Positions 1,678 through 16,886 of a DNA stretch of 36,477 nt are shown here, in pieces. This stretch comes from Mycolicibacterium chubuense (GTDB lineage Bacteria > Actinomycetota > Actinomycetes > Mycobacteriales > Mycobacteriaceae): the NCBI RefSeq assembly GCF_001044255.1, contig NZ_JYNX01000036.1, forward strand, positions 156,771 through 193,247, given 5' to 3'. The stretch's first letter is position 1. Each line of letters opens with the position of its first letter. The notes beneath the pieces were generated by a model. The model did not search any database. It had not been told where the DNA came from and saw only the letters and a program-made list of their open reading frames with translations. The position numbers were made by a program, and so were the translations under genes.

Positions 1678-2967
1678 ATGCCCGTCACCTGGAAACGTGT
1701 CGACTCGCACGCCGATCCCGACGCCGTCGTCGCACCCGACGAACGGCTGAGCTGGCCCCGCACCATCGGGCTGGGCGCCCAGCACGTCGTCGCGATGTTC
1801 GGCGCCACCTTCCTGGTGCCGGTCCTGACCGGGTTCCCGCCCGCCACCACGCTGCTGTTCTCCGGTGTCGGCACGCTGCTGTTCCTGCTGATCACCGGCA
1901 ACCGGCTTCCCAGCTACCTGGGGTCGAGCTTCTCGGTGATCGCGCCCATCACCGCGGCGGTCGCCTCGGACGGGGCGGGCAGCGCGCTGGGCGGCATCAT
2001 CGCCGTCGGGGTGCTGCTGATCCTCGTCGGCGTCGTCGTGCACGTCGCGGGCACCCGCTGGATCGACCTGACCCTGCCGCCCGTCGTGACGGGCGCGATC
2101 GTCGCGCTGATCGGGCTGAACCTGGCGCCAGTGGCCAAGACGAACTTCGAGAAGGGCCCGGTGCTGGGCCTGGTCACCCTGGTGCTGCTGGTGGCGGTGC
2201 TGGCCTTCTTCCGCGGCATGATCGGCCGGCTGGCCATCTTCCTCGCGGTCGCTGCGGGTTACGTGCTGGCGCTGGTGCTCGGCGACGTCGACACCTCGGG
2301 CATCGCGGCCGCCCCGTGGATCGGGCTGCCGGAGTTCCAGGCCCCGACGTTCTCGCTGTCGGTGCTGCCGCTGTTCCTGCCCGCCGTGGTGGCGCTGATC
2401 GCCGAGAACATCGGCCACGTCAAGTCGGTGGGGCAGATGACCCAGCGCGACATGGACCCGCTGATGGGCCGCGCGCTGGCGGCCGACGGCGTCGCGACGA
2501 CACTGGCCGGGTTCGGCGGCGGCTCGGCCACCACCACCTACGCCGAGAACATCGGGGTGATGGCGGCCACGCGGGTGTACTCGACGGCGCCGTACTGGGT
2601 CGCGGCGGCCGTCGCGATCCTGTTGTCGTTGTGCCCCAAGGTCGGCGCCGCGATCTCGGCGATCCCGCCCGGCGTGCTCGGCGGGGCGACGGTCGTGCTG
2701 TACGGACTGGTCGGCATCCTCGGCGTGCGGATCTGGCTGACCAACCACGTCGACTTCTCCCAGCCGGTCAACCAGATGACCGCGGCCATCCCGTTGGTCA
2801 TCGGTATCGCCGACTTCACGTGGACCGCAGGCGATCTCCAGTTCACCGGGATCGCGCTCGGATCGATCGCCGCGCTGGTGATCTATCACGGCATGCGGCT
2901 GCTCGGCTTCAGACCGGATCGAGCAACGCGGCCGGACCCCGATTCATCAGTTGACGCCCCACGATGA
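1678..2967 (+). CDS. NCS2 family nucleobase:cation symporter (uracil/xanthine permease-like)
   Basis: A 429-residue integral membrane protein with about 12-14 hydrophobic helices, of the UraA/RutG type. The family signature is visible as AENIGHVKSVGQM, corresponding to the conserved glutamate in the substrate site, and as GGGSATTTYAENIGVMAATR, the second conserved Glu loop. A cytoplasmic N-terminus (about 25 residues) precedes the first helix, with GLGAQHVVAMFGAT as the typical opening motif. I use the ATG at 1678, 10 bp after the SDR stop, because the longer frame from 1603 would overlap the SDR by 65 bp. It probably imports uracil, xanthine or a related base by proton symport. Its 3' end overlaps the convergent acyl-CoA dehydrogenase by 59 bp. 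Confidence 0.9.
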   Translation: MPVTWKRVDSHADPDAVVAPDERLSWPRTIGLGAQHVVAMFGATFLVPVLTGFPPATTLLFSGVGTLLFLLITGNRLPSYLGSSFSVIAPITAAVASDGAGSALGGIIAVGVLLILVGVVVHVAGTRWIDLTLPPVVTGAIVALIGLNLAPVAKTNFEKGPVLGLVTLVLLVAVLAFFRGMIGRLAIFLAVAAGYVLALVLGDVDTSGIAAAPWIGLPEFQAPTFSLSVLPLFLPAVVALIAENIGHVKSVGQMTQRDMDPLMGRALAADGVATTLAGFGGGSATTTYAENIGVMAATRVYSTAPYWVAAAVAILLSLCPKVGAAISAIPPGVLGGATVVLYGLVGILGVRIWLTNHVDFSQPVNQMTAAIPLVIGIADFTWTAGDLQFTGIALGSIAALVIYHGMRLLGFRPDRATRPDPDSSVDAPR

Positions 2968-4084
2968 GGCGCTGAATCTCGCTGGCGCCCTCCCAGATCC
3001 GCTCCACCCGCAGCTCCCGAAACAGCCGCTCGGCGACGTTCTCCCGCATGTAGCCGCGGCCGCCGAAGATCTGCACCGCCCGGTCGGCCGCCCGGCCCGC
3101 CATCTCCGAGCAGTACAGCTTGGCCATCGACGCCTGACCGTGCAGCGTCTTGCGATCATGGCCGGCGTCGATGGCCCGGGCCACCTCGTAGAGCATCGTG
3201 CGCGCGGCGAACAGTTCGGTGGCGCTGTCGGCGAGCATGCCCGCGACGAGTTGGTGCTCACCCAGCGGTCGGCCGCCCACCATGCGCTCCTGCGCGAACA
3301 CGGTGACCTCGTCGAGCAGACGCTGCGCCGCGCCGACGCATCGCGCGGCGACCATCATCCGTTCGAAGCGGAACCAGTCCTGCGTGAAGGTCATCGGGCC
3401 GCCCTCGGTTCCCACGAGGTTGTCCACCGGCACCCGCACCTCCCGGAACGCGACGATCGGGTGCTCGTCGGCGATGTTGTGCGAATACTTGGGCGAGCGA
3501 ACGACTTCCACCCCCGGCCAGGGCAGGTCGACCACGAGCAGCACGTGGTCGCCTGCATGCGGGCCGTCGGGCAGCACCGCCTCGACGAAGACGTAGTCGG
3601 CGAGGTTGTACGAGGTGACGTGCCACTTCACCCCGTCGATCACGTACTCGTCGCCGTCCCGGCGCGCGGTGGTCTGCAGCGCCGAGGTGTCCGAGCCGGC
3701 GAACTCCTCGGTGATCGCGTACGCCTCGTGCTTTTCACCGCGCACGGTCGGCAGCAGCCAGCGCTGCATCTGGTACTCGGTCGCGACGTCGGGCCACCAC
3801 TGCGGTGGGGTCGCCATCACCCAGCCCAGCCCGTTGGTGACCCGGCCGCACTGTTCCTGCACCAGGATCTGCTGCAGCGCCGTGCATCCCGCGCCGCCCA
3901 CCGAGGCCGGCATGTTGGTCGCGTACAGCCCCCTGGCCAGTGCGCGCGCCCGGTGCTCGGCGGTGACCTCCTTGGGCAGCATGCCGCCCGCGAGCTCGGC
4001 CTCCACCTCGTGGGGCATCAGCGATTCGACGAACTCGCGGGCCGTGTCGCGGATGCGCAGATCCTCGTCGGTCAACCCGTACAT
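2909..4084 (-). CDS. Acyl-CoA dehydrogenase family protein
   Basis: A 391-residue FAD enzyme with the full acyl-CoA dehydrogenase architecture: an N-terminal helical domain, a middle beta domain (YAITEEFAGSDTSALQTTA, VIDGVKWHVT) and a C-terminal helical domain. The C-terminal motifs include QIFGGRGYMRE and RIWEGASEIQRL, whose Glu is at the catalytic base position of medium-chain enzymes. It would introduce an alpha-beta double bond into an acyl-CoA. The start at 4084 has AGGAGAGG 8 nt upstream. A palindrome at 4102-4121 lies between it and the divergent oxidoreductase and carries a TAGACT -10-like box reading towards this gene. With the acyl-CoA synthetase further on, it suggests the carbon skeleton of the cluster's substrate is degraded as a CoA ester. 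Confidence 0.92.
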   Translation of the reverse strand: MYGLTDEDLRIRDTAREFVESLMPHEVEAELAGGMLPKEVTAEHRARALARGLYATNMPASVGGAGCTALQQILVQEQCGRVTNGLGWVMATPPQWWPDVATEYQMQRWLLPTVRGEKHEAYAITEEFAGSDTSALQTTARRDGDEYVIDGVKWHVTSYNLADYVFVEAVLPDGPHAGDHVLLVVDLPWPGVEVVRSPKYSHNIADEHPIVAFREVRVPVDNLVGTEGGPMTFTQDWFRFERMMVAARCVGAAQRLLDEVTVFAQERMVGGRPLGEHQLVAGMLADSATELFAARTMLYEVARAIDAGHDRKTLHGQASMAKLYCSEMAGRAADRAVQIFGGRGYMRENVAERLFRELRVERIWEGASEIQRLIVGRQLMNRGPAALLDPV

Positions 4085-4101: not shown

Positions 4102-4121
4102 TTGACTGAGCGTTCAGTCTA
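4102..4121. promoter_or_regulatory. Operator palindrome, site 1 (candidate TetR box)
   Basis: The plus strand reads TTGACTGAGCGTTCAGTCTA, a perfect GACTGA-N4-TCAGTC inverted repeat. It sits in the gap between the divergent acyl-CoA dehydrogenase and FAD oxidoreductase genes. On the minus strand it begins TAGACT, a good -10 hexamer for the dehydrogenase, so bound repressor would block RNA polymerase directly. Nearly the same 20-mer occurs at 12576-12595 (one base different) and a close relative at 9329-9348, next to the TetR gene. Confidence 0.75.
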
Positions 4122-4138
4122 TGTCAGCGTTCCGTACT

Positions 4139-5350
4139 ATGACCAGCTTCGGAAGCGCGGACGTCGTGGTGGTCGGCGGTGGCACGGTTGGGGCGTGGAC
4201 GGCCGTCCTGCTCGCCGAGAACAGCGATCTCGACGTCGTGCTGCTCGAGGCGCGGACGCTTGGTGACGGCGCCAGCAGCCGCGCGGCGGGCATGGTGCGT
4301 GCACAGGGCGGCACCGAGACCGCGATCCGACTGGGCCTGCGCACCCAGGAGTTCTATGCCGCGAGCGGCGACCGGTTCCCCCTCGACTGCGGCTTCGTCG
4401 CCCAGGGCTACCTGATGCCGTGTTTCAGCGACGCCGACGTCGCGGCCGCACACGATCGGATCGCCCTGCAGCGCTCCCTCGGACTCGACGTGGAATGGCT
4501 CTCGAGCGACGATATCGACAGTCGCGGAACAGGTCTCGCCCCCGGGGTGACACGCGGTGCGTCGTACGCCCCCGGCGACGGCTACATCGACGCCCCACGC
4601 AACGTGCTGGCCTACACCGCCGCGCTGACCGCCTGCGGCGTCGACGTCCGCGAACGCTGCGCGTTCACCGGCCTGCGAGTCTCCGCCGGCCGGGTCGTCG
4701 GGGTGGACACCTCGGACGGGCCGATCGACACCGCCCGGGTGGTGCTGACGGGCGGTCCGCAACTCGCCGACGTCGGGGCGCGGGCCGGCGCCCGGATCCC
4801 CGCCGGCGGTACCCGGCACCAGGTGGTCGTCACGTCACCGTTGCCGGACGTCGACGTGGACACGCTGCCGATGGTGTTCGACGTGACCTCCGGCATCTAC
4901 TGGCGACCCGGCGAGGCCGGCGGATTGCTCTGGGGGATGAGCAACCCCGACGAACCACCGGGTGTCGCGACGTCGTTCGACAACGCCTACTACCACACCG
5001 CGCTGGCCCGTCTCGAGACGTTGTTCCCCGCAGCGGCGGGGGTGGGCCTGCGTCGGACGTGGGCCGCCACGATCGACTACACCGCCGACCACCTCCCGAT
5101 CCTCGGGCCGTTGCTCACCGACGACGGACCGGTGGACGGCACCGTGGTCGCGAGCGCTGCCGGCCACGGCATGATGTGGGGCCCGGCCGTCGCGCAGGTG
5201 GCGGCGGATCTCGCGCGGGACGGCGCGTGCACTTGGCTCGATCTGACCGATCTGGGGCTTGACCGCTTCGACGCGGACGGACACAGTCGGGTGGCGCCCG
5301 AACCGATCTCCCTGCCCTTCCCCGAGACCACGGAGGCTCTTGCCCGATGA
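4139..5350 (+). CDS. FAD-dependent oxidoreductase, DAO/sarcosine oxidase beta-like
   Basis: About 403 residues. The N-terminal dinucleotide-binding motif VVVVGGGTVGAW is followed by an acidic end of strand 2 (LLEA) and by ASSRAAGMVRAQGG, typical of the D-amino acid oxidase / glycine oxidase / sarcosine oxidase superfamily. The C-terminal FAD loop (DHLPILGPL, AAGHGMMWGPA) also fits. These enzymes oxidise primary, secondary or tertiary amines with FAD. In-frame starts exist at 4121 and 4139; I prefer 4139 because the ATG at 4121 overlaps the end of the palindrome, which is conserved at another locus where that ATG is not a start. Neither has a clear ribosome binding site. The stop overlaps the cupin start as ATGA. 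Confidence 0.85.
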   Translation: MTSFGSADVVVVGGGTVGAWTAVLLAENSDLDVVLLEARTLGDGASSRAAGMVRAQGGTETAIRLGLRTQEFYAASGDRFPLDCGFVAQGYLMPCFSDADVAAAHDRIALQRSLGLDVEWLSSDDIDSRGTGLAPGVTRGASYAPGDGYIDAPRNVLAYTAALTACGVDVRERCAFTGLRVSAGRVVGVDTSDGPIDTARVVLTGGPQLADVGARAGARIPAGGTRHQVVVTSPLPDVDVDTLPMVFDVTSGIYWRPGEAGGLLWGMSNPDEPPGVATSFDNAYYHTALARLETLFPAAAGVGLRRTWAATIDYTADHLPILGPLLTDDGPVDGTVVASAAGHGMMWGPAVAQVAADLARDGACTWLDLTDLGLDRFDADGHSRVAPEPISLPFPETTEALAR

Positions 5351-5694
5351 CGAACGCCATCCTGACCTCGCTGCTGCCCGGCGCCGCCGACGCCGAACTC
5401 GAGGACTGGGGTCCGCTGGCCGAGGCCACCGAAGGTCCGATGACGGTGCACGGCGTCGAACTGTGGGTCGAAGGTGCGCAATCGGCAGGCATCTGGCAGT
5501 GCAGCCCCGGCCCGTCGTACTGGCGCCAGGACGAGAACGAGGTGATCTACGTGCTGTCGGGCCGGATGACCGTCACCCCCGACGGCGGTGAGCCGCTCGA
5601 GGTCGGCGCCGGGGACATCGCGGTGTTCCCCCTCGGCTGGACGGGCACCTGGGTGATCCACGAAACCCTTCGCAAGGTCTACGTGGTGTTCTGA
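5347..5694 (+). CDS. Small cupin-domain protein (cupin_3/DUF861 type)
   Basis: A 115-residue single-domain protein. Residues about 50-113 form a cupin barrel: WQCSPGPSYWRQDENEVIYV with conserved Glu, then GRMTVTPDGGEPLEVGAGD and AVFPLGWTGTW. This is the (S)-ureidoglycine aminohydrolase / EutQ-like cupin_3 subgroup, many members of which accompany amine or sarcosine oxidase-like enzymes without a known reaction. The usual metal-binding histidines are mostly absent, so catalysis by metal is uncertain; a binding or regulatory role is equally possible. It starts inside the stop codon of the oxidoreductase (ATGA), indicating translational coupling. Its 3' end overlaps the convergent acyl-CoA synthetase by 16 bp. 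Confidence 0.85.
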   Translation: MTNAILTSLLPGAADAELEDWGPLAEATEGPMTVHGVELWVEGAQSAGIWQCSPGPSYWRQDENEVIYVLSGRMTVTPDGGEPLEVGAGDIAVFPLGWTGTWVIHETLRKVYVVF

Positions 5695-7688
5695 TCCCCG
5701 CGCTCGACGGTGAGCACGTCGACCGCGATCGCCCCGCCGGGCGACACGATCACCGGGTTCGCCTCCACGGCGGCGTAGCGGTCCGCGAGGTCGACGGCCA
5801 TCTGACCGAAGCCGACGACCACGTCGGCCAGCGCGTCGACATCGGCGGGCGGTGCGCCGCGCCAGCCGTCGAGAAGCGGGCGAATCCGCAACGCCGCCAG
5901 CAGTTCCCGCGCACGATCTCGCGACAGCGGCGGGCAGGCGAGCACCCGGTCGGCGAGCAATTCGACCAGCGTGCCGCCGGCGGCGACGACCACCAGCGGC
6001 CCGAACGCCGGGTCACAGACGAAGCCGACCGACACCTCCACCCCCGGGGCCGCCATCGCCGACACCGTCACCGCGGGTCCCAGCCGGGCGAGGTCGCCAT
6101 AGGCTTCGCGTAGGGCCGACTCGTCGGCGATGCCGAGACGCACTCCCCCGACATCGCTCTTGTGCTGCACAGCAGCGGTTTTCGCCACCACCGGGTAGCC
6201 GATCTGTGCGGCCGCCTCACAGGCGGACTCCACGCTGTCGATCGTGCGGGTCGGGACCACCGGGATGCCGTAGTGGCCCAGCAGGTCGAACCCCGTCGCC
6301 GCCGTCGGCCCCGGCCCGGCGGTCGGTGCGCGATCGATCGGCCGCGGCCACGCCGCCAGGTGACCCATCGCCGCCAGGCCGCTGCGCAGTCCCTCCAGAA
6401 CGGGAATACCGTTGTCACGCAATTGTTGCGCGGTGGGCCGGTCGATCGCCGAGGCGACCGAGGCGAGCACCGCCAGCGGCGCATCGGTCTGCTTGGCTAC
6501 GTCGGTCACGGCGTCGGCGTAGGCCGTGTCACCGTCGAACTCGGTGACCAGATCCACCGCCAGCGCGGTGACCGCCACCGTGGGATCCTCGGCAATCGCA
6601 CGCAGACACCCCCCGAACAGGTTGCGGGTGTCGGCCCCGGTGCCCCAGACGTCGAGCGGATTGGTCGGCGTCAGCCCGTCGTCGAGCAGCGCGGCGACCG
6701 TCTCCGTCGTGTCGGGCGTCAACGCCGCGAAGTCCACCCCGAGATCGTCCGCGAGGTCGGCCGTGAGCGCCCGTTCGGCACCCGAATCGTGGACCGTCGC
6801 GATGCCGCCGCCCCGGGAGCGCCGGCCCGACGCGAAAAGCTCGATGGTGTCCGTGAACTCGGCCATGTCGGTGACGTGCACGGCACCGGTCGCGGTGCAG
6901 AACGCCTGCCATGCGGCGCGGCCGCCGGCGAGCGCTCCGGAGTGCGCGGCGACCATCGCGCTGCCTCGTGGTGAGCCGCCGATGGTCAGGATGATCACCG
7001 GGACATCGGCGTCGGCGGCACGCACCAGCGCCGCGCGCAGTCGGGGCACCGAGCGCGGCGTCTCCAGGAGCAGCGCGATGAGCCGGGTGCCGTCGTCGCG
7101 CAGCGCGTGATCGACGTAGTCGGCGGTATCGGTGACCAGTTCCTGCCCCGACGACACCGCGAGCCGGAAGCCGAATCCGCGACGGGCGCGCAGCAGAGTG
7201 GAGAACGCCGAGCCGGAGTGGGTGACCAGGCTGACCGGCCCGGGCGGCAACGGATCGGGCTCCAGATATCCGAGTGCCCGCACACCGTCAACGGAGTTCA
7301 CGAACCCCATACATCCCGCTCCGCACACCGCCATTCCCGCGGCCCGCGCCACCTCGGCGACCTGCGCGCGCCGTCCGTGCGCGGAGCCGAACACGACCGC
7401 GGAGCGAGCCCCCGCGTCGGCGGCGGCGCTGAGCTGCTCGACGAGCACGGCGTCCGGGACGCCCAGCAGCACCAGATCGACAGGCTCGTCGAGGTCGGCC
7501 AGCGTTGGGGCGCAGCGGTGTTCGCCGATCCTGTCGTAGCGTGGGTTGACCAGGTGGACCCGCGCGCAGCCCCGGAAAGCCTCGGCCACCATCCGCGCAC
7601 CGAAACTGTCGGGTCGCGGGCTGGCGCCGACCACCGCGATCGACCGGGCCCCCAGCATGGTGGCGACGGCCTCGGCGCGAGCACTCAT
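5679..7688 (-). CDS. Acyl-CoA synthetase (ADP/NDP-forming), fused alpha-beta type
   Basis: A 669-residue enzyme converting an acid, CoA and ATP to acyl-CoA, ADP and phosphate. The N-terminal CoA-binding domain has SIAVVGASPRPDSFG. The middle succinyl-CoA-ligase-like domains contain VTHSGSAFSTLL and MVAAHSGALAG, whose His is at the position phosphorylated in the family. The C-terminal ATP-grasp domain contains GYPVVAKTAAVQHKSDVGG and VEANPVIV. The length is near the ~700 residues usual for fused forms. The start is the ATG at 7688, which overlaps the stop of the upstream PYROXD2-like gene as ATGA; a longer frame to 7760 would read into that gene. It probably activates a short carboxylic acid released by the cluster's oxidases. 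Confidence 0.88.
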   Translation of the reverse strand: MSARAEAVATMLGARSIAVVGASPRPDSFGARMVAEAFRGCARVHLVNPRYDRIGEHRCAPTLADLDEPVDLVLLGVPDAVLVEQLSAAADAGARSAVVFGSAHGRRAQVAEVARAAGMAVCGAGCMGFVNSVDGVRALGYLEPDPLPPGPVSLVTHSGSAFSTLLRARRGFGFRLAVSSGQELVTDTADYVDHALRDDGTRLIALLLETPRSVPRLRAALVRAADADVPVIILTIGGSPRGSAMVAAHSGALAGGRAAWQAFCTATGAVHVTDMAEFTDTIELFASGRRSRGGGIATVHDSGAERALTADLADDLGVDFAALTPDTTETVAALLDDGLTPTNPLDVWGTGADTRNLFGGCLRAIAEDPTVAVTALAVDLVTEFDGDTAYADAVTDVAKQTDAPLAVLASVASAIDRPTAQQLRDNGIPVLEGLRSGLAAMGHLAAWPRPIDRAPTAGPGPTAATGFDLLGHYGIPVVPTRTIDSVESACEAAAQIGYPVVAKTAAVQHKSDVGGVRLGIADESALREAYGDLARLGPAVTVSAMAAPGVEVSVGFVCDPAFGPLVVVAAGGTLVELLADRVLACPPLSRDRARELLAALRIRPLLDGWRGAPPADVDALADVVVGFGQMAVDLADRYAAVEANPVIVSPGGAIAVDVLTVERGDQNTT

Positions 7689-9307
7689 CTCGACCTGAAG
7701 CGCTTCTTCTTCGTGTCCGCCAGCGCCGCCCGCGCGGCCTGCCAGCCCGGGATCCCGCACACGCCGCCGCCCGCGTGCGTTCCGGAGCTGCCGTTGTACA
7801 GCCCGGAGATCGGCGTGCGGTAGTCGGCATAGCCGGGGGCGGGCCGCATGTGAAACAGCTGCTCCAGGGAGAGCTCGCCGTGGAAGATGTTGCCGCCGAT
7901 CAGCCCGTACTCCTGTTCCATCTCGTGCGGGCCGACGATGTCGCGGTGCAGGATCGAGGCCTTGAAGCCCGGGGCGACCTGGTCGTAGAGATCGATCAGC
8001 CGATCGGCGTACGCGTCGAGTTCCTGGGTGTGCGGCGCGTTCGCCCAGTCAGCGGGCACCCACTGGGTGAACAGCGACATGATATGCGTGCCATCGGGAT
8101 TGAGCGTCGTGTCCAGTGTCGTCGGGATCACGCCGTCACTGAACGGCATCAGTGCGGGGCGTCCTGCCCGGGCGTCCTGGAACGCGGCCTCGATGTACTC
8201 CATCGTCGGCGCCATCTCGACCGAGCCGGTGTGATGCTCGGCCTGCCCGCTGCTGGGATCGGCGGTGAAGTTCGGAAGCTCACCCAGTGCCAGATTGATC
8301 TTCACCACGCCGCTGCGAGTCTTGAACCGCTCGATGTCCGTGACGAAGTCCTCGGGCAGCTCGGTGCGCGGAACATGCTCGAGGAAAGCCGTTTTCGGGT
8401 GCAGCGTGGTGACCACCAACGGCGCGGTGATCTCCTCGCCGCTGTCGAGGACGGCGCCGTGGACCGCGCCGCCGCGGACGAGCAGCCGTGCCACCCGGGC
8501 GCGGGTGCGGATCTCGGCGCCGAAGCTGCGCGCCGACGCCGCGATGGCTTCCGACACCGCACCCATCCCGCCCTCGGGGTAACCCCAGCTGCCGAGCTGA
8601 CCGTCGCCGACGTCGCCGATCGAGTGGTGGGCCATCACGTATGCGGTGCCCGGCTCGTAGGGTCCGGCCCAGGTGCCGATCACGCCGTTGACGGCCAGCG
8701 CGCCCTTGATCTGGGGGGATTCGAACCAATCGTCGAGAAGGTCGGCGATGCTCATAGTCAACAGCCGGGTGACGTCGGCAGTGGTCCGCACGGTCAGCCC
8801 GCGCTGGCTCCACGCCAGCTTGGCCAGATCGAGCAGGTCGGACGGCCGGCGCGAGCCGATGGCAGGCGGCACCTGGGTGAGCAGGGGGCCCATCACATCG
8901 GCGATGCCCTCCAGCCACGCGTTCCATCTCGGCCACGCCTCGGCGTCCTTCTTCGACCACCTCGCCAGCTGCTCGTAGGTGCGCGCCGGGTCGTCCTCGT
9001 AGATCGTCAGCGAACCACCTTCGGGAAACGCCTGATAATAGGGACCCATCGGGTGCACCTTGTAACCATGGCGTTGCAACTGCAGTTCCCGCACGATCGT
9101 GGGCGGCATCAGGCTCATGACGTAGGACAGCCGCGTCACGCGCAAATGGGGAGCCTCCTCCCACGGTGCCTCCGTGGTGGCCGCGCCACCGAGCGAACCG
9201 CGCGACTCGAGCACCAGCGTGCGAGCCCCGGACCGGGCCAGATAGGCCGCCGACACCAAGCCGTTGTGACCGCCGCCGATCACGAGAGCGTCGTAGTTGT
9301 GGGACAT
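7685..9307 (-). CDS. NAD(P)/FAD-dependent oxidoreductase, phytoene desaturase / PYROXD2-like
   Basis: A 540-residue flavoprotein of the phytoene dehydrogenase-related superfamily. DALVIGGGHNGLVSAAYLAR near the start is the FAD-binding motif, followed by LVLESRGSLGGAA. The C-terminal segment with ISGLYNGSSGTHAGGGVCG closes the flavin site. Homologues of this type (PYROXD2-like) are widespread in actinobacteria with few known reactions. The neighbouring genes suggest dehydrogenation of an amine or an alicyclic intermediate rather than carotenoid synthesis, as no other carotenoid genes are present. GGAGAGG precedes the ATG. It is divergent from the TetR gene across operator site 2 and is translationally coupled to the acyl-CoA synthetase. 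Confidence 0.88.
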   Translation of the reverse strand: MSHNYDALVIGGGHNGLVSAAYLARSGARTLVLESRGSLGGAATTEAPWEEAPHLRVTRLSYVMSLMPPTIVRELQLQRHGYKVHPMGPYYQAFPEGGSLTIYEDDPARTYEQLARWSKKDAEAWPRWNAWLEGIADVMGPLLTQVPPAIGSRRPSDLLDLAKLAWSQRGLTVRTTADVTRLLTMSIADLLDDWFESPQIKGALAVNGVIGTWAGPYEPGTAYVMAHHSIGDVGDGQLGSWGYPEGGMGAVSEAIAASARSFGAEIRTRARVARLLVRGGAVHGAVLDSGEEITAPLVVTTLHPKTAFLEHVPRTELPEDFVTDIERFKTRSGVVKINLALGELPNFTADPSSGQAEHHTGSVEMAPTMEYIEAAFQDARAGRPALMPFSDGVIPTTLDTTLNPDGTHIMSLFTQWVPADWANAPHTQELDAYADRLIDLYDQVAPGFKASILHRDIVGPHEMEQEYGLIGGNIFHGELSLEQLFHMRPAPGYADYRTPISGLYNGSSGTHAGGGVCGIPGWQAARAALADTKKKRFRSR

Positions 9308-9328
9308 CGATGACCTCTCCAGAGCATC

Positions 9329-9348
9329 CTGACTGACTGTTCAATCTA
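9329..9348. promoter_or_regulatory. Operator palindrome, site 2 (candidate TetR box)
   Basis: The minus strand reads TAGATTGAACAGTCAGTCAG, matching the sites at 4102 and 12576 in both half-sites with one change in the left arm (TAGATTGA for TAGACTGA). It lies between the divergent TetR gene and the PYROXD2-like oxidoreductase. The left arm supplies a TAGATT -10-like box for the oxidoreductase. Its position next to the regulator gene is what links the whole set to this TetR protein, through autoregulation. Confidence 0.7.
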
Positions 9349-9360
9349 ACGAAGTGTTAG
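9346..9360. promoter_or_regulatory. Second dyad beside site 2
   Basis: CTAACGAAGTGTTAG is a perfect 5-bp inverted repeat with a 5-bp spacer, immediately next to and slightly overlapping operator site 2. It does not resemble the TAGACTGA half-site. It could bind another regulator or be chance; its last six bases (TGTTAG) could also serve as a weak -10 box for the TetR gene. Confidence 0.35.
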
Positions 9361-9404
9361 CCTCCAGACAAGGGCTGCGCCGCACACGATGGGAGGATCA
9401 CCGC

Positions 9405-10014
9405 ATGGCAGAACCTGCGCCCGCGACCGAGCAGAACGAGGGTCGCCGGATCGAAATGCTCCGTGCGGCAGCCGAGCTGATCTGTGAGCGGGGCTTCGGC
9501 GACACCCGGATCGCCGACGTGGCCAAGCGCGCCGGCGTGAGTTCGGCGCTCGTCATCTACTACTTCGGCACCCGGGACCGGCTGCTCGTCGACGCGTTGC
9601 GCTTCTCCGAGGAATCTTTCTACGAGGCGGCGGAGAAGATGCTCGCCGAGGTGCCCTCGCTGCGCGACCGCCTGTCCCTGCTGATCCGGTGGACGTGTGT
9701 CCCCGGGACCGATGACGAGATCCCCGGCGCCTGGGGACTGTGGTTCGATCTGTGGGCACAGGCGTTCCGGCACAACGAGATCAAAGCCGGGCGGGTGGAA
9801 CTCGACGCGCGATGGCGCACGATGATCGTCGACGCCGTGCGGTCCGGCGCCGATCGGGCCAGTGTCGATCCGCGGATGTTCGCCCTCGAGTTCGCCGCGC
9901 TGCTCGACGGGCTGTCGATCCAGGTCGCACTCGAGGACCCCGAGATCGATTCCGAGGTCGCCTACGACATCGCGATGCGCTTCGCCGAGCGGGAACTCAA
10001 CCTCGAGCCCACCG

Positions 10015-10028
<14 letters not shown>
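9405..10028 (+). CDS. TetR family transcriptional regulator, BetI-like
   Basis: A 207-residue repressor. Residues about 14-60 form the TetR helix-turn-helix: [20 protein letters not shown], then [20 protein letters not shown]. The C-terminal ligand domain ([30 protein letters not shown]) resembles the BetI-type C-terminal domain of regulators of amine and choline metabolism. The start at 9405 has GGGAGG 8 nt upstream; the frame is open to 9354 but there it overlaps the promoter dyads. It is the only regulator in the 14-kb cluster and lies beside one copy of the repeated palindrome, so it is the natural candidate to bind all copies. Its 3' end overlaps the PotA-like gene by 14 bp. Confidence 0.9.
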
Positions 10029-11154
<1,126 letters not shown>

Positions 11155-11167
11155 CAGACCGGCACCA

Positions 11168-12553
11168 TCAGTGCGACGCGGCGACCGCCGCGGCGAACGC
11201 GCCGAAGTTGCGCGCGAACCTGTCGACATCGTCGACCGTGTGCTGAACCGACAACAGCCATTGCTCCACCTTCCCCCATGGCGGGAGGAATACGCCACCG
11301 TTGTGTTGCATGAGCCAGTGCAGGTGGCCTAGCCGCGCGTCGATCTCGAGGAAGTCGCGGAACTCCCGCACCGGCTCCCGCCGGAAGGTCACACAGCCTT
11401 TGGCGCCCAGGGCCACCACGTGCCAGTCGAATCCGTGCTCGGCGATCACCGCCTCCAGGGCGGCACGCAGTCGCGCCGACAGGGCGTCGAGGTGGGCGTA
11501 GTTGTCGGCCGTGAGCACCGCCGACAGCGTGGCGCGGGTGGCCGCCATGGCGAGCGGATTGCCGTTGAACGTGCCGACCTGTTCGTACCGGCCGTCGGCG
11601 ATCGCCGACATCACCGCGGGGCTGCCTCCGATCGCGGCCACGGCGATCCCGCCGCCCAGCGCCTTGGCCAGGCACACCATGTCCGGCACCACCCCGCTGC
11701 GTCCGGTGATGCCACCCGGTCCGGTGGTGAAGCCGGTCTTCACCTCGTCGTAGATCAGCAGGGCCCCGTGAGTGTGCAGGAGGTCCTTCAGCGCGGCGAG
11801 GTAGCCGTCGTCGGGCGGGATGATGCCGGCGTTCATCATCACCGGCTCCAGGATCATCGCGGCCACCTGCCCCCGGTACCGAGTCAATTCCCGCGCCACC
11901 GCGTCGACGTCGTTGAACGGGACCACGATGACCAGATCGCGAATCGCGCGGGGAATGCCGGTGTTTCCGGGGACCGGGATGGGTGCGTCGCGCGGTCCCA
12001 CCTCGTCGGCCTCGGGCAGTACCGAGACCTGCACCGAGTCGTGGTGGCCGTGATAGCAACCCTCGACCTTGATGATGAGATCCCGCCCGGTGACCGATCG
12101 GGCGAGGTGGACCGCGTCCATGGTGGCCTCGGTGCCGGAGTTCGCGTACCGCCACAGCGGCACGTCGAAGCGGCGCGCCAACTCCCCGGCGATCCAGATC
12201 GCGTCCTCGGTCGGCTGCGCGAAGTGGGTGCCGCGGCGAACGCGGTCGCTGACGGCAGCCACGATCGCCGGATGGGCATGTCCGGCAATGGATGCGCCGT
12301 AGCCGCCGTGCATGTCCACGTACTCGGTGCCGTCGACGTCGTACACCTTCGAGCCCTCGCCGTGACTCATCCACACCGCCTGCGGTTCGGCGATCTGCCA
12401 GTTCGACGTCGCGCCACCGGCCAGGTGCGCGCCTGCGATCTCGATCAGTTCGGCGCTGCGCGGCTGACGGCGCAGGAAGATCTCCTCCTGTTCGGCGATC
12501 AGGGAGTCGAGGGACCTCACAGAGTCGAAGCGGGCCGTCATCGTTGCAGCCAC
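11168..12553 (-). CDS. Class III PLP-dependent aminotransferase, GSA-aminomutase-like
   Basis: A 461-residue fold type I PLP enzyme most like glutamate-1-semialdehyde aminomutases and related omega-aminotransferases. [13 protein letters not shown] and [15 protein letters not shown] (phosphate-binding region) are followed by YDEVKTGF (Asp binding the pyridine nitrogen) and by the Schiff-base lysine in CLAKALGGG. The true HemL of haem synthesis is normally encoded elsewhere, and the surrounding catabolic genes point to transamination or isomerisation of an amine substrate. The GTG at 12553 has GGAGG 6 nt upstream; an ATG four codons later is possible. Operator site 3 lies just upstream, with a TAGACT box reading into this gene. 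Confidence 0.88.
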
Positions 12554-12575
12554 CGCGAACCTCCGGTCGTGTCGG

Positions 12576-12595
12576 TTGACTGAGCATTCAGTCTA
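12576..12595. promoter_or_regulatory. Operator palindrome, site 3 (candidate TetR box)
   Basis: The plus strand reads TTGACTGAGCATTCAGTCTA, differing from site 1 by a single base in the spacer; the next two bases (TG) also match. It lies between the divergent aminotransferase-PotA and PotDBC-Rieske operons, so one bound dimer could control substrate import and metabolism together. The minus strand again begins with TAGACT, positioned as a -10 box for the aminotransferase. Confidence 0.75.
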
Positions 12596-12643
12596 TGCGA
12601 GAGTCCTACCAGCGACAAGACGCGAAATCAATGGGGAGGCCCG

Positions 12644-13879
12644 ATGCCAGAGCCCAGCACCCGACGTCAGTTCCTGACGCGCGCAGCGATTCTGGCCGCG
12701 AGCGCACCCACGCTCGGCGCGTTCCTCGCCGCGTGCGGCGGCGGATCGGATTCCTCGGGCCCGGGTGCCTCCCCGACGCTCAAGCTGGCCTCGCCGGACA
12801 GTCCGGTCACCTGGGACATCCCCGAGGACAACAAGCCGATCGCCGACGGCCTCGCCCCCGAGATGGGCACGCTGAAGCTCTACACCTACGCCGACTACGT
12901 CAGCCCCGATGCCGTGAAGTCCTTCGAGCAGAAATACGGAGTGACGGTTGAGATCTCGACGTTCAACGACGGCGGGGAGGCACTGACCAAGCTGCGCAGC
13001 GGCGTCGACTTCGACATCTACAACGCCAACTACACCGAGATCAGCCGGCTGGTCAACGGCGGGCTGTTGCGACCGCTGAACCACTCCTACATCCCGAACA
13101 TCTCCAATGTCTGGCCCAGTTTCACCAACCCCTGGTACGACCAGGAGTGGCGCTACAGCGTTCCGTACACGATCTACACCACCGGCATCGGCTGGCGCAC
13201 CGACCAGGTGCCCGCGGACATCGGAGCGCTCGGCAATCCCTACGACGCCTTCTGGGATCCCGCCTACAAGGGCAAGACCGCGGTCCTCGACGACTGGCAC
13301 ACCACGATGGGCATGGTGCTGCTGCGCAACGGCATCACCGACATCAACACGTCGTCGGAGGCCGACCTGAAGCTGGTCGGCGACCAGCTCAAGCAGCTGG
13401 TGGCGGCCACGTCGCCGAAGGTCACCATCACCGCCTACAACGACCTGCCGGCCGGTCAGCTGGGGCTGGCCCAGATGTGGTCGGGCGACATCATCAACGC
13501 GCAGTCCTACCTTCCCGAGGGCACCGGGCCGGAGGTGCTGCGCTACTGGTTCCCCGCCGACGGCAAGGGCATGGTGGACAACGACATGCTGGTCACGCTC
13601 AAGGGCGGCAAGAACCCGGTGCTCGCGCATCTGTTCCTCGATCACATGCTCGACACCGAGGTGGCCATGCAGAACTTCTCGGCGATCGGCTACCAGCCAC
13701 CGCAGAACTCGATCAAGCCCGACGCGTTGGTATCGGACGGTTTCATCCCGAAGAATCTGTCGACGGCGATCGTCAAGCCCGAGTGGTTCGACGCCGGGTA
13801 CCGGATTCTGGAGTTGGATCCTGCCAACGACGCTGCTTGGCAGAATGTTTGGCGCACGTTCAAGGCCGGCGGGTCCTAA
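12644..13879 (+). CDS. ABC transporter substrate-binding lipoprotein (PotD/PotF-like)
   Basis: A 411-residue extracytoplasmic binding protein. The N-terminus has a twin-arginine motif (STRRQFL, about 5-11) and a lipobox ending LAAC with the lipidated Cys at 31, so it should be exported folded by Tat and anchored to the membrane. The mature part follows the spermidine/putrescine-binding family (LKLYTYADYVSPDAVKSFEQ, DIYNANYTEISRLV, GLAQMWSGDI). Ligand specificity cannot be read off; many PotD-like proteins bind betaines, opines or other cationic amines. GGGGAGG lies 5 nt before the ATG. It is the first gene of the transporter operon, followed after 9 bp by PotB. Confidence 0.9.
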   Translation: MPEPSTRRQFLTRAAILAASAPTLGAFLAACGGGSDSSGPGASPTLKLASPDSPVTWDIPEDNKPIADGLAPEMGTLKLYTYADYVSPDAVKSFEQKYGVTVEISTFNDGGEALTKLRSGVDFDIYNANYTEISRLVNGGLLRPLNHSYIPNISNVWPSFTNPWYDQEWRYSVPYTIYTTGIGWRTDQVPADIGALGNPYDAFWDPAYKGKTAVLDDWHTTMGMVLLRNGITDINTSSEADLKLVGDQLKQLVAATSPKVTITAYNDLPAGQLGLAQMWSGDIINAQSYLPEGTGPEVLRYWFPADGKGMVDNDMLVTLKGGKNPVLAHLFLDHMLDTEVAMQNFSAIGYQPPQNSIKPDALVSDGFIPKNLSTAIVKPEWFDAGYRILELDPANDAAWQNVWRTFKAGGS

Positions 13880-13888
13880 GCTCTCCCC

Positions 13889-14794
13889 ATGTCCAGCAGG
13901 TCCGACCGGTCCCGCGGAATATGGCCCGCGCTCGCGGCGCCCGGAGTGGTCTGGCTGCTGCTGTTCTTCGTCGCACCGATGTACGTGGTGCTGTGCATCG
14001 TGTTCGGTAGGCTCGATCCGATCTTCCGCACCGCGGTGCCGATCTGGAATCCCGTGCAGTGGGATCCCACCCAGTTCCTCTACGTGCTGTCCCACATCGT
14101 CGGAGCGGACGGGGTGTTCGGCCCGGCGCTGCTGCGCACCGCGGTGTACGTGCTGACCGCCAGCGCGACCTGCCTGCTCATCGCCTTCCCGGTGGCCTAC
14201 TACGTCGCGCGGTTGTCCGGGCGACGCAAGGGTCTGCTGCTGACGCTGCTGATCGCCCCGTTCTGGATCAGCTACATGATGCGGATGTTCGCCTGGGTCA
14301 ACCTGTTGCAGGACGACGGTCTGGTCAACTCCGTGCTCGGGTTCGGCGGGCTGTTCACCCCCGACATCGACTGGCTGACGGGCCAACCGGCCGTCGTGAT
14401 CCTGGGCCTGGTGTACGGCTACGTGCCGTACATGATCCTGCCGCTCTACGCGGGCCTGGACCGGCTCCCGCAGCCGGTGCTCGAGGCATCCCGCGATCTC
14501 GGCGCCGATCGTGCGTCGTCGTTCTGGCGGGTGACGCTGCCGCTCGCCCGGCCGACGATCGTGGCCGCGGTTCTGCTGACGTGCCTGCCGATGCTGGGTG
14601 ACTACTTCACCAGCGACATGCTCTCCGCGTCGCCGAAGACCGCGATGGTCGGCAACCTGATCAACGACAGCGTGCTCACCCCGGGCCAAACCGGCCAGGC
14701 CGGCGCGTTCGTGCTGCTCGTGTTCCTCGCCGCGTTGATCCCGATGCTCTACTACATCCGCGTCACCGGCCGCCGCGACGAGGTGGCCTCGTGA
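13889..14794 (+). CDS. ABC transporter permease (PotB-like)
   Basis: A 301-residue inner-membrane permease with six or so hydrophobic helices, the first at about residues 12-38. The cytoplasmic EAA coupling loop is visible as EASRDLGADRASSFWRVTLP, which docks to the ATPase. The family is the binding-protein-dependent transport inner membrane component, PotB/PotH branch. There is no strong ribosome binding site upstream of the ATG, and the 9-bp spacing suggests coupling to PotD translation. The last codons overlap the start of the PotC-like gene as GTGA. It forms a heterodimeric channel with that protein. Confidence 0.92.
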   Translation: MSSRSDRSRGIWPALAAPGVVWLLLFFVAPMYVVLCIVFGRLDPIFRTAVPIWNPVQWDPTQFLYVLSHIVGADGVFGPALLRTAVYVLTASATCLLIAFPVAYYVARLSGRRKGLLLTLLIAPFWISYMMRMFAWVNLLQDDGLVNSVLGFGGLFTPDIDWLTGQPAVVILGLVYGYVPYMILPLYAGLDRLPQPVLEASRDLGADRASSFWRVTLPLARPTIVAAVLLTCLPMLGDYFTSDMLSASPKTAMVGNLINDSVLTPGQTGQAGAFVLLVFLAALIPMLYYIRVTGRRDEVAS

Positions 14795-15672
14795 GGAGCC
14801 CCGTCACCTGGTGGAACGATCCGTGGCGGCCGCCCCGGATCCTGGTCGCGGTGACCGTCGGCTACCTGCTCTGGTCGCTACTGCCGGTGCTGATCGCGGT
14901 GCTGTTCTCGTTCAACGCGGGCCGGTCGCGCACGGTGTGGCAGGGCTTTTCGTTCCGCTGGTACTGGGGTGACCAGACGCTGTCGGTGTGGCACGACGCG
15001 ACGCTGCACGACGCGCTGCTGCAGACGCTGAAACTCGGCGTGCTCACCACGCTGATCACGGTGCCGCTCGGTGTGCTGTTCGCGCTCGGCATCGACCGGT
15101 GGCGCGGCCGGCTCCCGTCGGGGGCGAACTTCCTGATGCTGCTCGCGTTCGTACTGCCCGAGGTGCTGCTCGCGGTGGCGCTGCTGTTCGTGATCACCAC
15201 CGTCGCGCTGCCGATCGAGCTCGGCACCACCGCGCAGGTGATCGGCCTGATCACCTTTCAGGTCTCCTATCCCGCCGTCCTGGTCCGCGCCCGGCTGGCC
15301 ACGATCGGACCGCAGTACGAGGAGGCCGCGATGGACCTGGGCGCCTCACCGGTCGGCGCGCTGCGCCGCGTCATCATGCCGATGCTGATGCCCGCGATCT
15401 TCGCCAGCACCGTGCTGGTGTTCGCCGACGTCATCGACGACTTCGTGATGGTGCGGTATCTCTCGGGCGGGGCGTCCTCCGAGCCCGTCTCGGTGAAGAT
15501 CTACAACACCGCCCGCGGTGCCCCCACGCCGGCACTCAACGCCCTGGCGACGCTGCTGCTGCTCACCGCGCTCGCGGCGGTCACGGTCGGCTATCTGGTG
15601 TTCCGGCGGATGACCCGCAACGACGACACCACCGCCGACCGCGGTATCGGCGCGTTCGCCGGGGAGCTGTGA
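14791..15672 (+). CDS. ABC transporter permease (PotC-like)
   Basis: A 293-residue second permease subunit, with helices beginning at about residue 15 (ILVAVTVGYLLWSLLPVLIA). The EAA loop is EEAAMDLGASPVGALRRVIM. The length and order match PotC/PotI. It starts at a GTG inside the PotB stop codon (GTGA), giving strict translational coupling. With PotA (10015-11154), PotB and PotD it completes a four-component importer for a small charged nitrogen compound. The Rieske oxygenase begins 41 bp downstream and may be co-transcribed or use its own promoter in that gap. Confidence 0.92.
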   Translation: MRSPVTWWNDPWRPPRILVAVTVGYLLWSLLPVLIAVLFSFNAGRSRTVWQGFSFRWYWGDQTLSVWHDATLHDALLQTLKLGVLTTLITVPLGVLFALGIDRWRGRLPSGANFLMLLAFVLPEVLLAVALLFVITTVALPIELGTTAQVIGLITFQVSYPAVLVRARLATIGPQYEEAAMDLGASPVGALRRVIMPMLMPAIFASTVLVFADVIDDFVMVRYLSGGASSEPVSVKIYNTARGAPTPALNALATLLLLTALAAVTVGYLVFRRMTRNDDTTADRGIGAFAGEL

Positions 15673-15701
15673 TGGTCTGGACCGACAACCACCCACGACA
15701 C

Positions 15702-15721
15702 TAGACTGACTGTATGTTCAA
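15702..15721 (+). promoter_or_regulatory. Leaderless-type promoter with partial operator, site 4
   Basis: TAGACTGACTGTATGTTCAA contains a perfect left half-site (TAGACTGA) of the shared palindrome, while the right half is degenerate (4 of 8 positions). The TAGACT box ends exactly six bases before the A of the Rieske ATG at 15714. Transcription would therefore begin at the start codon, the geometry of leaderless mycobacterial genes. No ribosome binding site precedes that ATG, which agrees. The operator role is less certain than at sites 1-3. Confidence 0.5.
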
Positions 15722-16886
15722 ACAGCACGATCCGGCCCCGCTGCCGCCCGACGGAGTCGCCGCGGCGTTGGCGCCGTTCGGCCGGTCCCGGATGCTGCCC
15801 CGCGAGGCGTACGTCGATCCGGCCGTGTTCGCCTGGGAACAGCGCAACATCTTCTCCGGATGGTCCTGCGTCGGGCACGCTTCCGATCTCGCCGCGGTCG
15901 GCGCGCAGAAGGCGGTCGGCAGCGGCGCGAACGGCACCCTGCTGGTGCGCGGTGACGACGGCGTGATCCGCGCGTTCGCCAACACCTGCCGGCACCGTGG
16001 TCATGAGCTGCTGGCCTGCGGCGCGTCGGCGCGAGGGAGAAGCATCGTCTGTCCGTACCACGCGTGGTCCTACCGGCTCGACGGAAGTCTGCGCAATGCA
16101 CCGGGTTTCGCGGACGTCGACGGCTTCGACCCCGCGGAGTCCGGGCTGGCCGAACTGCGGTTGGTCGACTGGCACGGCTGGCTGTTCGTGGATTCCGGCG
16201 GAGCCGACGTGGACTTCAGCCGGCACGTCGCCGGGTGGGACGACGTCGTGGCCCCGTACCGGCCCGAGGATCTCACGGTCGTCGCGCGCCACTCCTACGA
16301 GCTCGCCACCAACTGGAAGGTGATCGCCGAGAACTACCAGGAGTGCTACCACTGCCAGAGCATTCACCCGGAGCTGTCCCGGATCAGCCCGCCCACCAGT
16401 GGGGAGAACCTGGACCGGGACGGCGCGTGGATGGGCGGCTGGATGTCGATCGTCGACGGCGCGGAGACCATGTCGCTGACCGGCAGGAGCGGCGGGGTGA
16501 CCATCGCGGGCCTGTCCGAGCACGAGCGGCGCACCGTGATGTACGTGGTGGCCTACCCGAACCTGCTCATAAGCCTGCATCCCGATTATGTGATGACGCA
16601 CCTGATGACGCCGCTGGCCGCCGACCGCACCCACGTCGAGTGCGCCTGGGCGTTCCCGAAAGACGTTGCTGCGCAACCGGATTTCGACCCCTCCTACGCG
16701 GTCGACTTCTGGGATCTGACCAATCGTCAGGACTGGGCGGCCTGCGAGTCGGTGCAGCGCGGGCTCAGTTCACCGCACGCGCGCCCGGGGCCGCTCGCCC
16801 CGGACGAGGACGGCGTCTACCAGTTCGTCACACGGGTGGCTAGGGCGTACGCCGGTTCCGCTGATCGTGCGCCGGAACCCCGTTGA
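15714..16886 (+). CDS. Rieske non-haem iron oxygenase alpha subunit, quaternary-amine-type
   Basis: A 390-residue aromatic-ring-hydroxylating-type oxygenase. The Rieske [2Fe-2S] ligands are in CRHRGHELL and, 17 residues after its His, CPYHAW. The mononuclear iron site lies in NWKVIAENYQECYHCQSIHP (two His), with an Asp expected in WDLTNRQDW. In the bridging position between the centres this protein has Glu (QEC) where most members have Asp; from memory, Glu is a mark of the carnitine, glycine betaine and stachydrine oxygenases. That favours N-demethylation or C-N cleavage of a methylated or quaternary amine. No reductase partner is encoded in the window. Its 3' end overlaps the convergent peptidase gene by 47 bp. 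Confidence 0.88.
   Translation: MFKQHDPAPLPPDGVAAALAPFGRSRMLPREAYVDPAVFAWEQRNIFSGWSCVGHASDLAAVGAQKAVGSGANGTLLVRGDDGVIRAFANTCRHRGHELLACGASARGRSIVCPYHAWSYRLDGSLRNAPGFADVDGFDPAESGLAELRLVDWHGWLFVDSGGADVDFSRHVAGWDDVVAPYRPEDLTVVARHSYELATNWKVIAENYQECYHCQSIHPELSRISPPTSGENLDRDGAWMGGWMSIVDGAETMSLTGRSGGVTIAGLSEHERRTVMYVVAYPNLLISLHPDYVMTHLMTPLAADRTHVECAWAFPKDVAAQPDFDPSYAVDFWDLTNRQDWAACESVQRGLSSPHARPGPLAPDEDGVYQFVTRVARAYAGSADRAPEPR

Follow-up and report, generated by a model that had tools for sequence, protein, structure and literature searches.

Comparison with described systems

In the tetR/tetA system, one operator between divergent genes controls both the regulator and its target, and BetI is a TetR-family repressor of the choline-to-betaine genes. 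We analyzed a window of Mycolicibacterium chubuense (contig NZ_JYNX01000036.1, positions 156,771 to 193,247; the window is the whole stretch of 36,477 nucleotides), which contains a cluster of 12 genes with one gene for a TetR-family regulator (9405-10028) and a 20-letter palindrome that recurs in the gaps between divergent genes. These palindromes are very probably the operators of the cluster-encoded TetR, which would repress the whole 12-gene set. Sequence comparison establishes the specificity and conservation of the sites, their co-occurrence with the TetR, their retention beside genes that have moved, and the conservation of promoter-like elements. As a self-regulated repressor regulon, the locus would represent an ordinary and familiar kind of local gene control, and this is well supported by the sequences compared.

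The predicted layout is the divergent, autoregulated one of tetR/tetA; here, however, the operator recurs in three gaps, with a variant over the Rieske start codon as the fourth, and would serve 12 genes. With BetI, the regulator shares the TetR DNA-binding domain, a BetI-type C-terminal domain (PF13977) and the neighborhood of a local catabolic gene set, but it scores below both NCBIfam cut-offs for BetI (85.2 versus 201.3 bits, and 77.8 versus 118), and none of the choline dehydrogenase and betaine-aldehyde dehydrogenase families or betA/betB/betT were found among the 12 cluster genes (Pfam/NCBIfam).

A further likeness concerns the Rieske oxygenase of the cluster. Group-V Rieske enzymes are described as carrying a C-x-x-C motif beside the bridging Glu at the mononuclear iron and as acting on quaternary ammonium compounds (PMC10952381). 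The E-C-x-x-C of CntA (Glu205-Cys206-Cys209), a Group-V enzyme like Stc2, is shared by the window enzyme (PMC10952381): the window protein reads ECYHC from residue 210, the motif is found in 54 of 56 relatives, and it has the C-x-x-C by which the same text defines Group V. This likeness, known here from the sequence motif, covers the enzyme only and not the regulator. No reductase family was found among the 12 cluster genes (Pfam), and among the matches listed in a search of the open-licence literature there was no paper on the motif, the regulon or the cluster.

Occurrence of the palindrome in the window and in the genus

The candidate operators (plus-strand readings) and the regulator gene are the following:

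4102..4121, plus strand: operator 1, TTGACTGAGCGTTCAGTCTA; TTGACT arm placed as -35 of the DAO gene, reverse arm TAGACT as -10 of the acyl-CoA dehydrogenase (ACAD) gene
9329..9348, plus strand: operator 2, CTGACTGACTGTTCAATCTA; reverse arm TAGATT placed as -10 of the PYROXD2-like gene
12576..12595, plus strand: operator 3, TTGACTGAGCATTCAGTCTA; consensus match, aligned in 61 sequences
15706..15725, plus strand: operator 4 in corrected register, CTGACTGTATGTTCAAACAG; spans the Rieske start codon, conserved in relatives
9405..10028, plus strand: TetR-family regulator with BetI-type C-terminal domain (PF00440 and PF13977)

The consensus search of the window matched sites 1, 2 and 3 with 0, 1 and 0 mismatches, all on the minus strand, and 100 shuffled versions of the window had on average 0.01 matches with three mismatches or fewer (largest, 1). 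Site 1 lies between the ACAD and DAO genes, site 2 between the PYROXD2-like gene and tetR, and site 3 between the aminotransferase and PotD-like genes. The preliminary description had placed three palindromes here, each between divergent genes, with one base of difference between the first and the third; the search and a direct comparison of the sequences bear this out, and Pfam likewise finds tetR to be the sole regulator gene among the 12. Its product matches the TetR_N helix-turn-helix (PF00440) with 45.1 bits against a cut-off of 24.

A genome-wide motif search had been set beforehand as the refutation test for the proposed regulon, and no spread to unrelated promoters was seen. In the M. 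chubuense genome (5,945,009 bases, 96 contigs) the palindrome occurs with at most two mismatches at three places, which are sites 1-3 of the cluster; two further places at three mismatches are below the backward control (6 forward, 5 reverse at up to three mismatches). The genus sample comprised 198 genomes, in which the TetR was counted at E <= 1e-40 and the site as the exact 19-base pattern TGACTGANNNTTCARTCTA. The pattern has 107 copies in these genomes, and the backward control 0 in all 198. All copies but one (106/107) are found within 142 bp before the matched start of one of three genes: tetR in 36 cases, the PotD-like gene in 36 and the DAO gene in 34. The remaining copy (G008, L085) sits beside the ACAD gene, close to where a short contig ends.

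The TetR is present in 39 and the exact pattern in 38 of the 198 genomes, with both in 36, the TetR only in 3, the pattern only in 2 and neither in 157. Fisher's p for this co-occurrence is 1e-33, a value that ignores kinship, since the genomes are related, many are shared with the set of loci described below, and the cases are not independent. The two genomes with the pattern only, G111 (89% complete) and G126 (63%), have cluster genes on the contigs read, which break off at the point expected for tetR. The DAO gene was found in 36 genomes, of which 35 have the TetR and the other is G111. PotD-like genes at 65% identity are present without the TetR in G184 and G032 (L090, L091), where the stretches contain no other cluster gene and no site at up to three mismatches; these two genes, and a second, partial PotD-like copy in G126 (L092), were not counted as cluster members. 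The proposal of the preliminary description, about 12 genes under one ligand-responsive TetR, thus gains support from a motif confined to the cluster and co-occurring with the TetR; the assignment to this TetR we infer.

Conservation at related and rearranged loci

The locus set comprised 71 TetR relatives, with L077 (29% identity) left out. A site with at most two mismatches is found upstream of tetR in 68 of the 71, with L070 at 53% as the lowest protein identity, before the PotD-like gene in 60 of 61 (the copy in L069 lies at 519 bp, outside the 400 bp inspected), and upstream of the DAO gene in 35 of 37, the other two beginning at contig ends. The sites are conserved in dozens of named species or isolates. 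In L030, two tandem operators 23 bp apart (13249, 13272) precede the PotD-like gene.

In 13 of the 33 genomes with tetR and a DAO site, the two are over 8 kb apart or on different contigs. Outside the genus, all 16 searched genomes of distant loci match a looser pattern at up to one mismatch, with 50 matches versus 4 in the backward control, some places being counted on both strands; the genome of L059 was not among the 16. Nine stretches were read, chosen from these matches (G198:C1, G198:C2 and G204:C96 left out). In seven of the nine (L093-L099), from Nocardioides-type genomes, the site stands directly before cluster genes of separated or rearranged modules; L100 has no cluster gene beside the site, and L101 has only an oxidoreductase gene of 39% identity, more than 1 kb away. 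By these comparisons, the sites stay with their genes where modules have moved. One contig (L044) labelled Bifidobacterium breve has a tetR-potA-aminotransferase stretch 74-82% identical to that of the window; the label is probably a binning error.

G054 (L081, G054:C1:355000-374900), which has lost the cluster, has the TetR closest to that of the window in the sample (97% identity), with tetR intact and the operator kept; only fragments of the ACAD, PYROXD2-like and potA genes remain, and DAO and PotD-like genes were not found genome-wide. In G004 (L078, about 9874-10540), tetR is split into two overlapping pieces in different frames beside a decayed site with three mismatches, and the 20 kb read contain no cluster genes; G136 has tetR with a one-mismatch site and likewise no cluster genes in 20 kb.

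Weighing against control by the local TetR are the three relatives L065, L074 and L076 (of 71), which have no site at up to two mismatches upstream of tetR, and G166 (L080), whose TetR is 73% identical and which has neither a cluster gene nor a site at up to three mismatches in the 19 kb read; this TetR may have changed targets. In addition, the TetR and the sites are mostly linked, so co-inheritance alone explains part of the co-occurrence, and with related genomes the p-values overstate independence. The same four loci favor another explanation, in which a regulator encoded elsewhere binds the palindromes and the local TetR has other targets. A distal regulator with a distribution of its own should, however, leave sites in genomes without the TetR, and 157 of the 159 TetR-less genomes have none, the other two being incomplete; the site precedes tetR itself in nearly all relatives, even at the lowest of the identities given above, and survives in G054 beside a tetR without its cluster. 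We therefore regard a second regulator as very unlikely. In L074 and L076, operator position 8 is G rather than A, and the residue behind YYF in the recognition region is Q or E in place of G; with two cases only, this covariation of regulator and operator was not used as support.

Proposed promoter elements at the sites

Sequences were aligned on the site if it had at most two mismatches, a rule by which few loci were lost and which slightly inflates site conservation. This gave 35, 68 and 61 distinct sequences for sites 1, 2 and 3, respectively (164 in total). Positions 1-20 carry 1.83-1.92 bits per position versus 0.19-0.35 in the 60 bases to the left and 0.55-1.02 in those to the right (site 1: mean 1.92, left 0.35, right 1.02, the latter partly coding; site 3: 1.83, 0.29 and 0.55).

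Part of this conservation coincides with promoter-like elements. In two start-site maps of mycobacteria, TANNNT is given for 73% of primary starts, with an extended TGN -10 (PMC3898074), and ANNNT for 79%, at -6 to -13 (PMC6448022). The reverse-strand arm TAGAYT of the palindrome is such a TANNNT -10 in 35/35 sequences at site 1, 67/68 at site 2 and 59/61 at site 3. To the right, at 17 bp after TTGACT, an extended -10 follows at site 1 (TG at positions 21-22 in 34/35, A25 with T29 in 34/35) and at site 3 (TG in 57/61, A25 with T29 in 52/61); at site 2, TG is rare (3/68) and TAnnnT is found instead at positions 30-35 (60/68). The rightward -10 at site 3 accompanies T1 in 51 of 58 sequences and C1 in 1 of 3, which are too few to be used. 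The elements proposed for the window, next to the arms listed above, are:

4122..4130, plus strand: proposed extended -10 of the DAO gene; TG at site positions 21-22, nAnnnT at 24-29
9358..9363, plus strand: proposed -10 of tetR, TAGCCT; site positions 30-35
15702..15707, plus strand: TAGACT, -10 box of the proposed leaderless Rieske promoter; positions -12 to -7 relative to the ATG

For the leftward genes, TTG lies 17 or 18 bp before the -10 in 67/68 sequences at site 2 and 55/61 at site 3, and other TTG offsets from -3 to +3 give 0 to 2 matches, except for 16/68 at one offset of site 2. The pair of positions 2 and 19, in which T2 belongs to TTGACT and T19 to TAGAYT, is symmetric in 0/164 sequences, which holds for no other pair outside the N4 spacer. 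Asymmetry is also frequent in pairs 1 and 5 of site 2 (symmetric in 29/68 and 9/68).

With many invariant positions on the proposed -35 and -10 elements, the conserved sequence might be a shared promoter only, and no operator. This is hardly credible in view of positions 7, 8, 13 and 14, which are near-invariant though outside both hexamers, and of pairs 7 and 8, which are symmetric in 68/68 sequences at site 2 and in 61/61 and 60/61 at site 3. Also, unlike a general promoter, the exact pattern occurs nowhere else in the 198 genomes, and at the Rieske gene the conservation extends into codons 2-4. Since the palindrome would carry the leftward -10 and, at two sites, TTGACT as -35, one bound dimer could block both directions.

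The fourth site differs in position and register. The preliminary description had reported a half-conserved copy at 15702-15721; a site is indeed present and conserved in relatives, in the register 15706-15725, and it lies between the co-directional PotC-like and Rieske genes, not in a divergent gap. The earlier register was rejected, as the unit conserved in relatives starts at CTGACTG (15706) and the preceding TANNNT, with variable inner bases, is a -10 box; the sequence first given, TAGACTGA, is mostly this -10 box plus the first operator bases. Symmetric outer pairs number 3/8 in the earlier and 5/8 in the corrected register. At least 5/8 symmetry is commonplace in the window (2,077 of 36,458 positions) and neither register is unusual taken alone; the fourth site rests on its conservation in relatives. 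Of 57 Rieske sequences (the window included), 50 start M-F-K/N-Q or nearly so, and the other seven were left out of the following counts. Counted from the start codon, TANNNT occupies -12 to -7 in 46/50 and one base further up in 4/50, and GACTGT or GACTGC is found at -6 to -1 in 48/50. The Lys codon 3 is AAA in 45/45, whereas AAA makes up 58 of 334 Lys codons in the downstream parts of these genes. This pattern fits a leaderless Rieske transcript with an operator over its start.

In L096 the fourth site also crosses a start codon (GTG, then F-S-Q); a non-coding reading of this copy was rejected, since coding constraint might explain the A at its position 19. The only fourth-site copy found before the reading frame, in L072, also has A19 and is a single case. 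In place of the fourth site, L071 and L075 have another, shorter palindrome upstream of the Rieske gene, of type TTGAAYGGNCGTTCAA.

Some TetR-family proteins activate, and NCBIfam names FasR of mycobacteria, a TetR-family protein, as an activator. That the present TetR is an activator, or an activator on one side and a repressor on the other, is nevertheless highly unlikely, as the sites overlap the proposed -10 and -35 elements and the Rieske start codon, which is expected of steric repression.

Some points count against the promoter part of the repressor model. The counts of the elements come from the very alignment that had drawn attention to them (post hoc), TTG at 17-18 bp before the leftward -10 is found in 0/35 sequences at site 1, and in 7 of the 57 Rieske sequences the start codon is not spanned by the fourth site. 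Moreover, both start-site maps report no -35 consensus (PMC3898074, PMC6448022), which weakens the TTGACT claim and makes the -35 assignment the weakest part of the promoter reading.

Proposed regulation

The following predictions, drawn from the comparisons above, concern the binding of protein to DNA, its repressing and not activating effect, the operons, the start sites and the ligand. A TetR dimer would bind TGACTGA-N4-TCAGTCA at the three divergent gaps and a weaker variant at the fourth place. Six units would be repressed in this way, i.e. ACAD, DAO-cupin, PYROXD2-like/acyl-CoA synthetase, tetR, aminotransferase-potA and potD-potB-potC, together with the Rieske gene, which would be transcribed from its own leaderless promoter, for a total of 12 genes. 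Each divergent operator would cover both promoters, with the TAGAYT arm as the leftward -10 and the TTGACT arm, at sites 1 and 3, 17 bp before the extended rightward -10, such that a single bound dimer would exclude RNA polymerase both ways; tetR itself would be under its own repressor. Release of the TetR would be brought about by a pathway substrate or intermediate, possibly quaternary-amine or betaine-like, imported by the Pot-type transporter. A quaternary amine is possible as the ligand because the Rieske enzyme is of the Group-V type, and the nearest solved relatives and the gene content of the distant clusters suggest, rather than identify, a quaternary amine as the substrate of the pathway.

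For the full combination of these proposals we see an even chance: that the 20-bp word at the three gaps is at once operator, leftward -10 and, at two sites, rightward -35, with RNA polymerase rather than the repressor determining pair 2/19; that the fourth variant runs through a leaderless start into the next three codons; and that the pathway served by the regulon in environmental mycobacteria and Nocardioides is an undescribed one for the catabolism of a quaternary amine. The regulon is testable, with one regulator, four operators and 12 genes, and the ligand of the regulator would help to identify the substrate of the unnamed catabolic pathway. The overlap of operator, -10 and -35-like elements would make a clean case for sequence sharing between repressor and polymerase in mycobacteria, the group in which the genome-wide maps give no -35 consensus.

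Gene content of the cluster

Besides tetR, the cluster comprises:

2909..4084, minus strand: ACAD (PF00441/PF02770/PF02771); leftward of operator 1
4139..5350, plus strand: DAO-family FAD oxidoreductase, sarcosine-oxidase-like (PF01266; scan of frame 4121-5350)
5347..5694, plus strand: Cupin_3 protein (PF05899)
5679..7688, minus strand: acyl-CoA synthetase, acetate-CoA ligase (ADP-forming) type (PF13380/PF13607/PF13549; scan of longer frame to 7760)
7685..9307, minus strand: PYROXD2/CrtO-like FAD oxidoreductase (Pfam, NCBIfam); leftward of operator 2
10015..11154, minus strand: PotA-like ABC ATPase (TIGR01187, 392.7 bits, cut-off 355.6; scan of longer frame to 11298)
11168..12553, minus strand: class-III aminotransferase, HemL-like (PF00202); leftward of operator 3
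12644..13879, plus strand: PotD-like substrate-binding protein (family searches)
13889..14794, plus strand: ABC permease, PotB-like (PF00528)
14791..15672, plus strand: ABC permease, PotC-like (PF00528)
15714..16886, plus strand: Rieske oxygenase alpha subunit, E-C-Y-H-C motif (PF00355/PF00848)

The DAO and cupin reading frames overlap by 4 bases, and for this reason the two genes probably form one operon. A DAO start at 4121 was rejected in favor of 4139: among the 35 relatives with site 1, 5 have the ATG of site position 20 out of frame with DAO and 10 have an in-frame stop after it. The start codon of the acyl-CoA synthetase gene (ATG at 7688) and the TGA stop codon of the PYROXD2-like gene overlap. 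The product of the latter has CrtO as its best NCBIfam match, with 233 bits, far under the cut-off of 1000, and the PYROXD2 label is that of the preliminary description. Content and order of 16 genes are the same in M. chlorophenolicum (L006), with identities of 94-99%. Two tandem M28 peptidase genes with PA domains adjoin the cluster (window positions 16840-19829).

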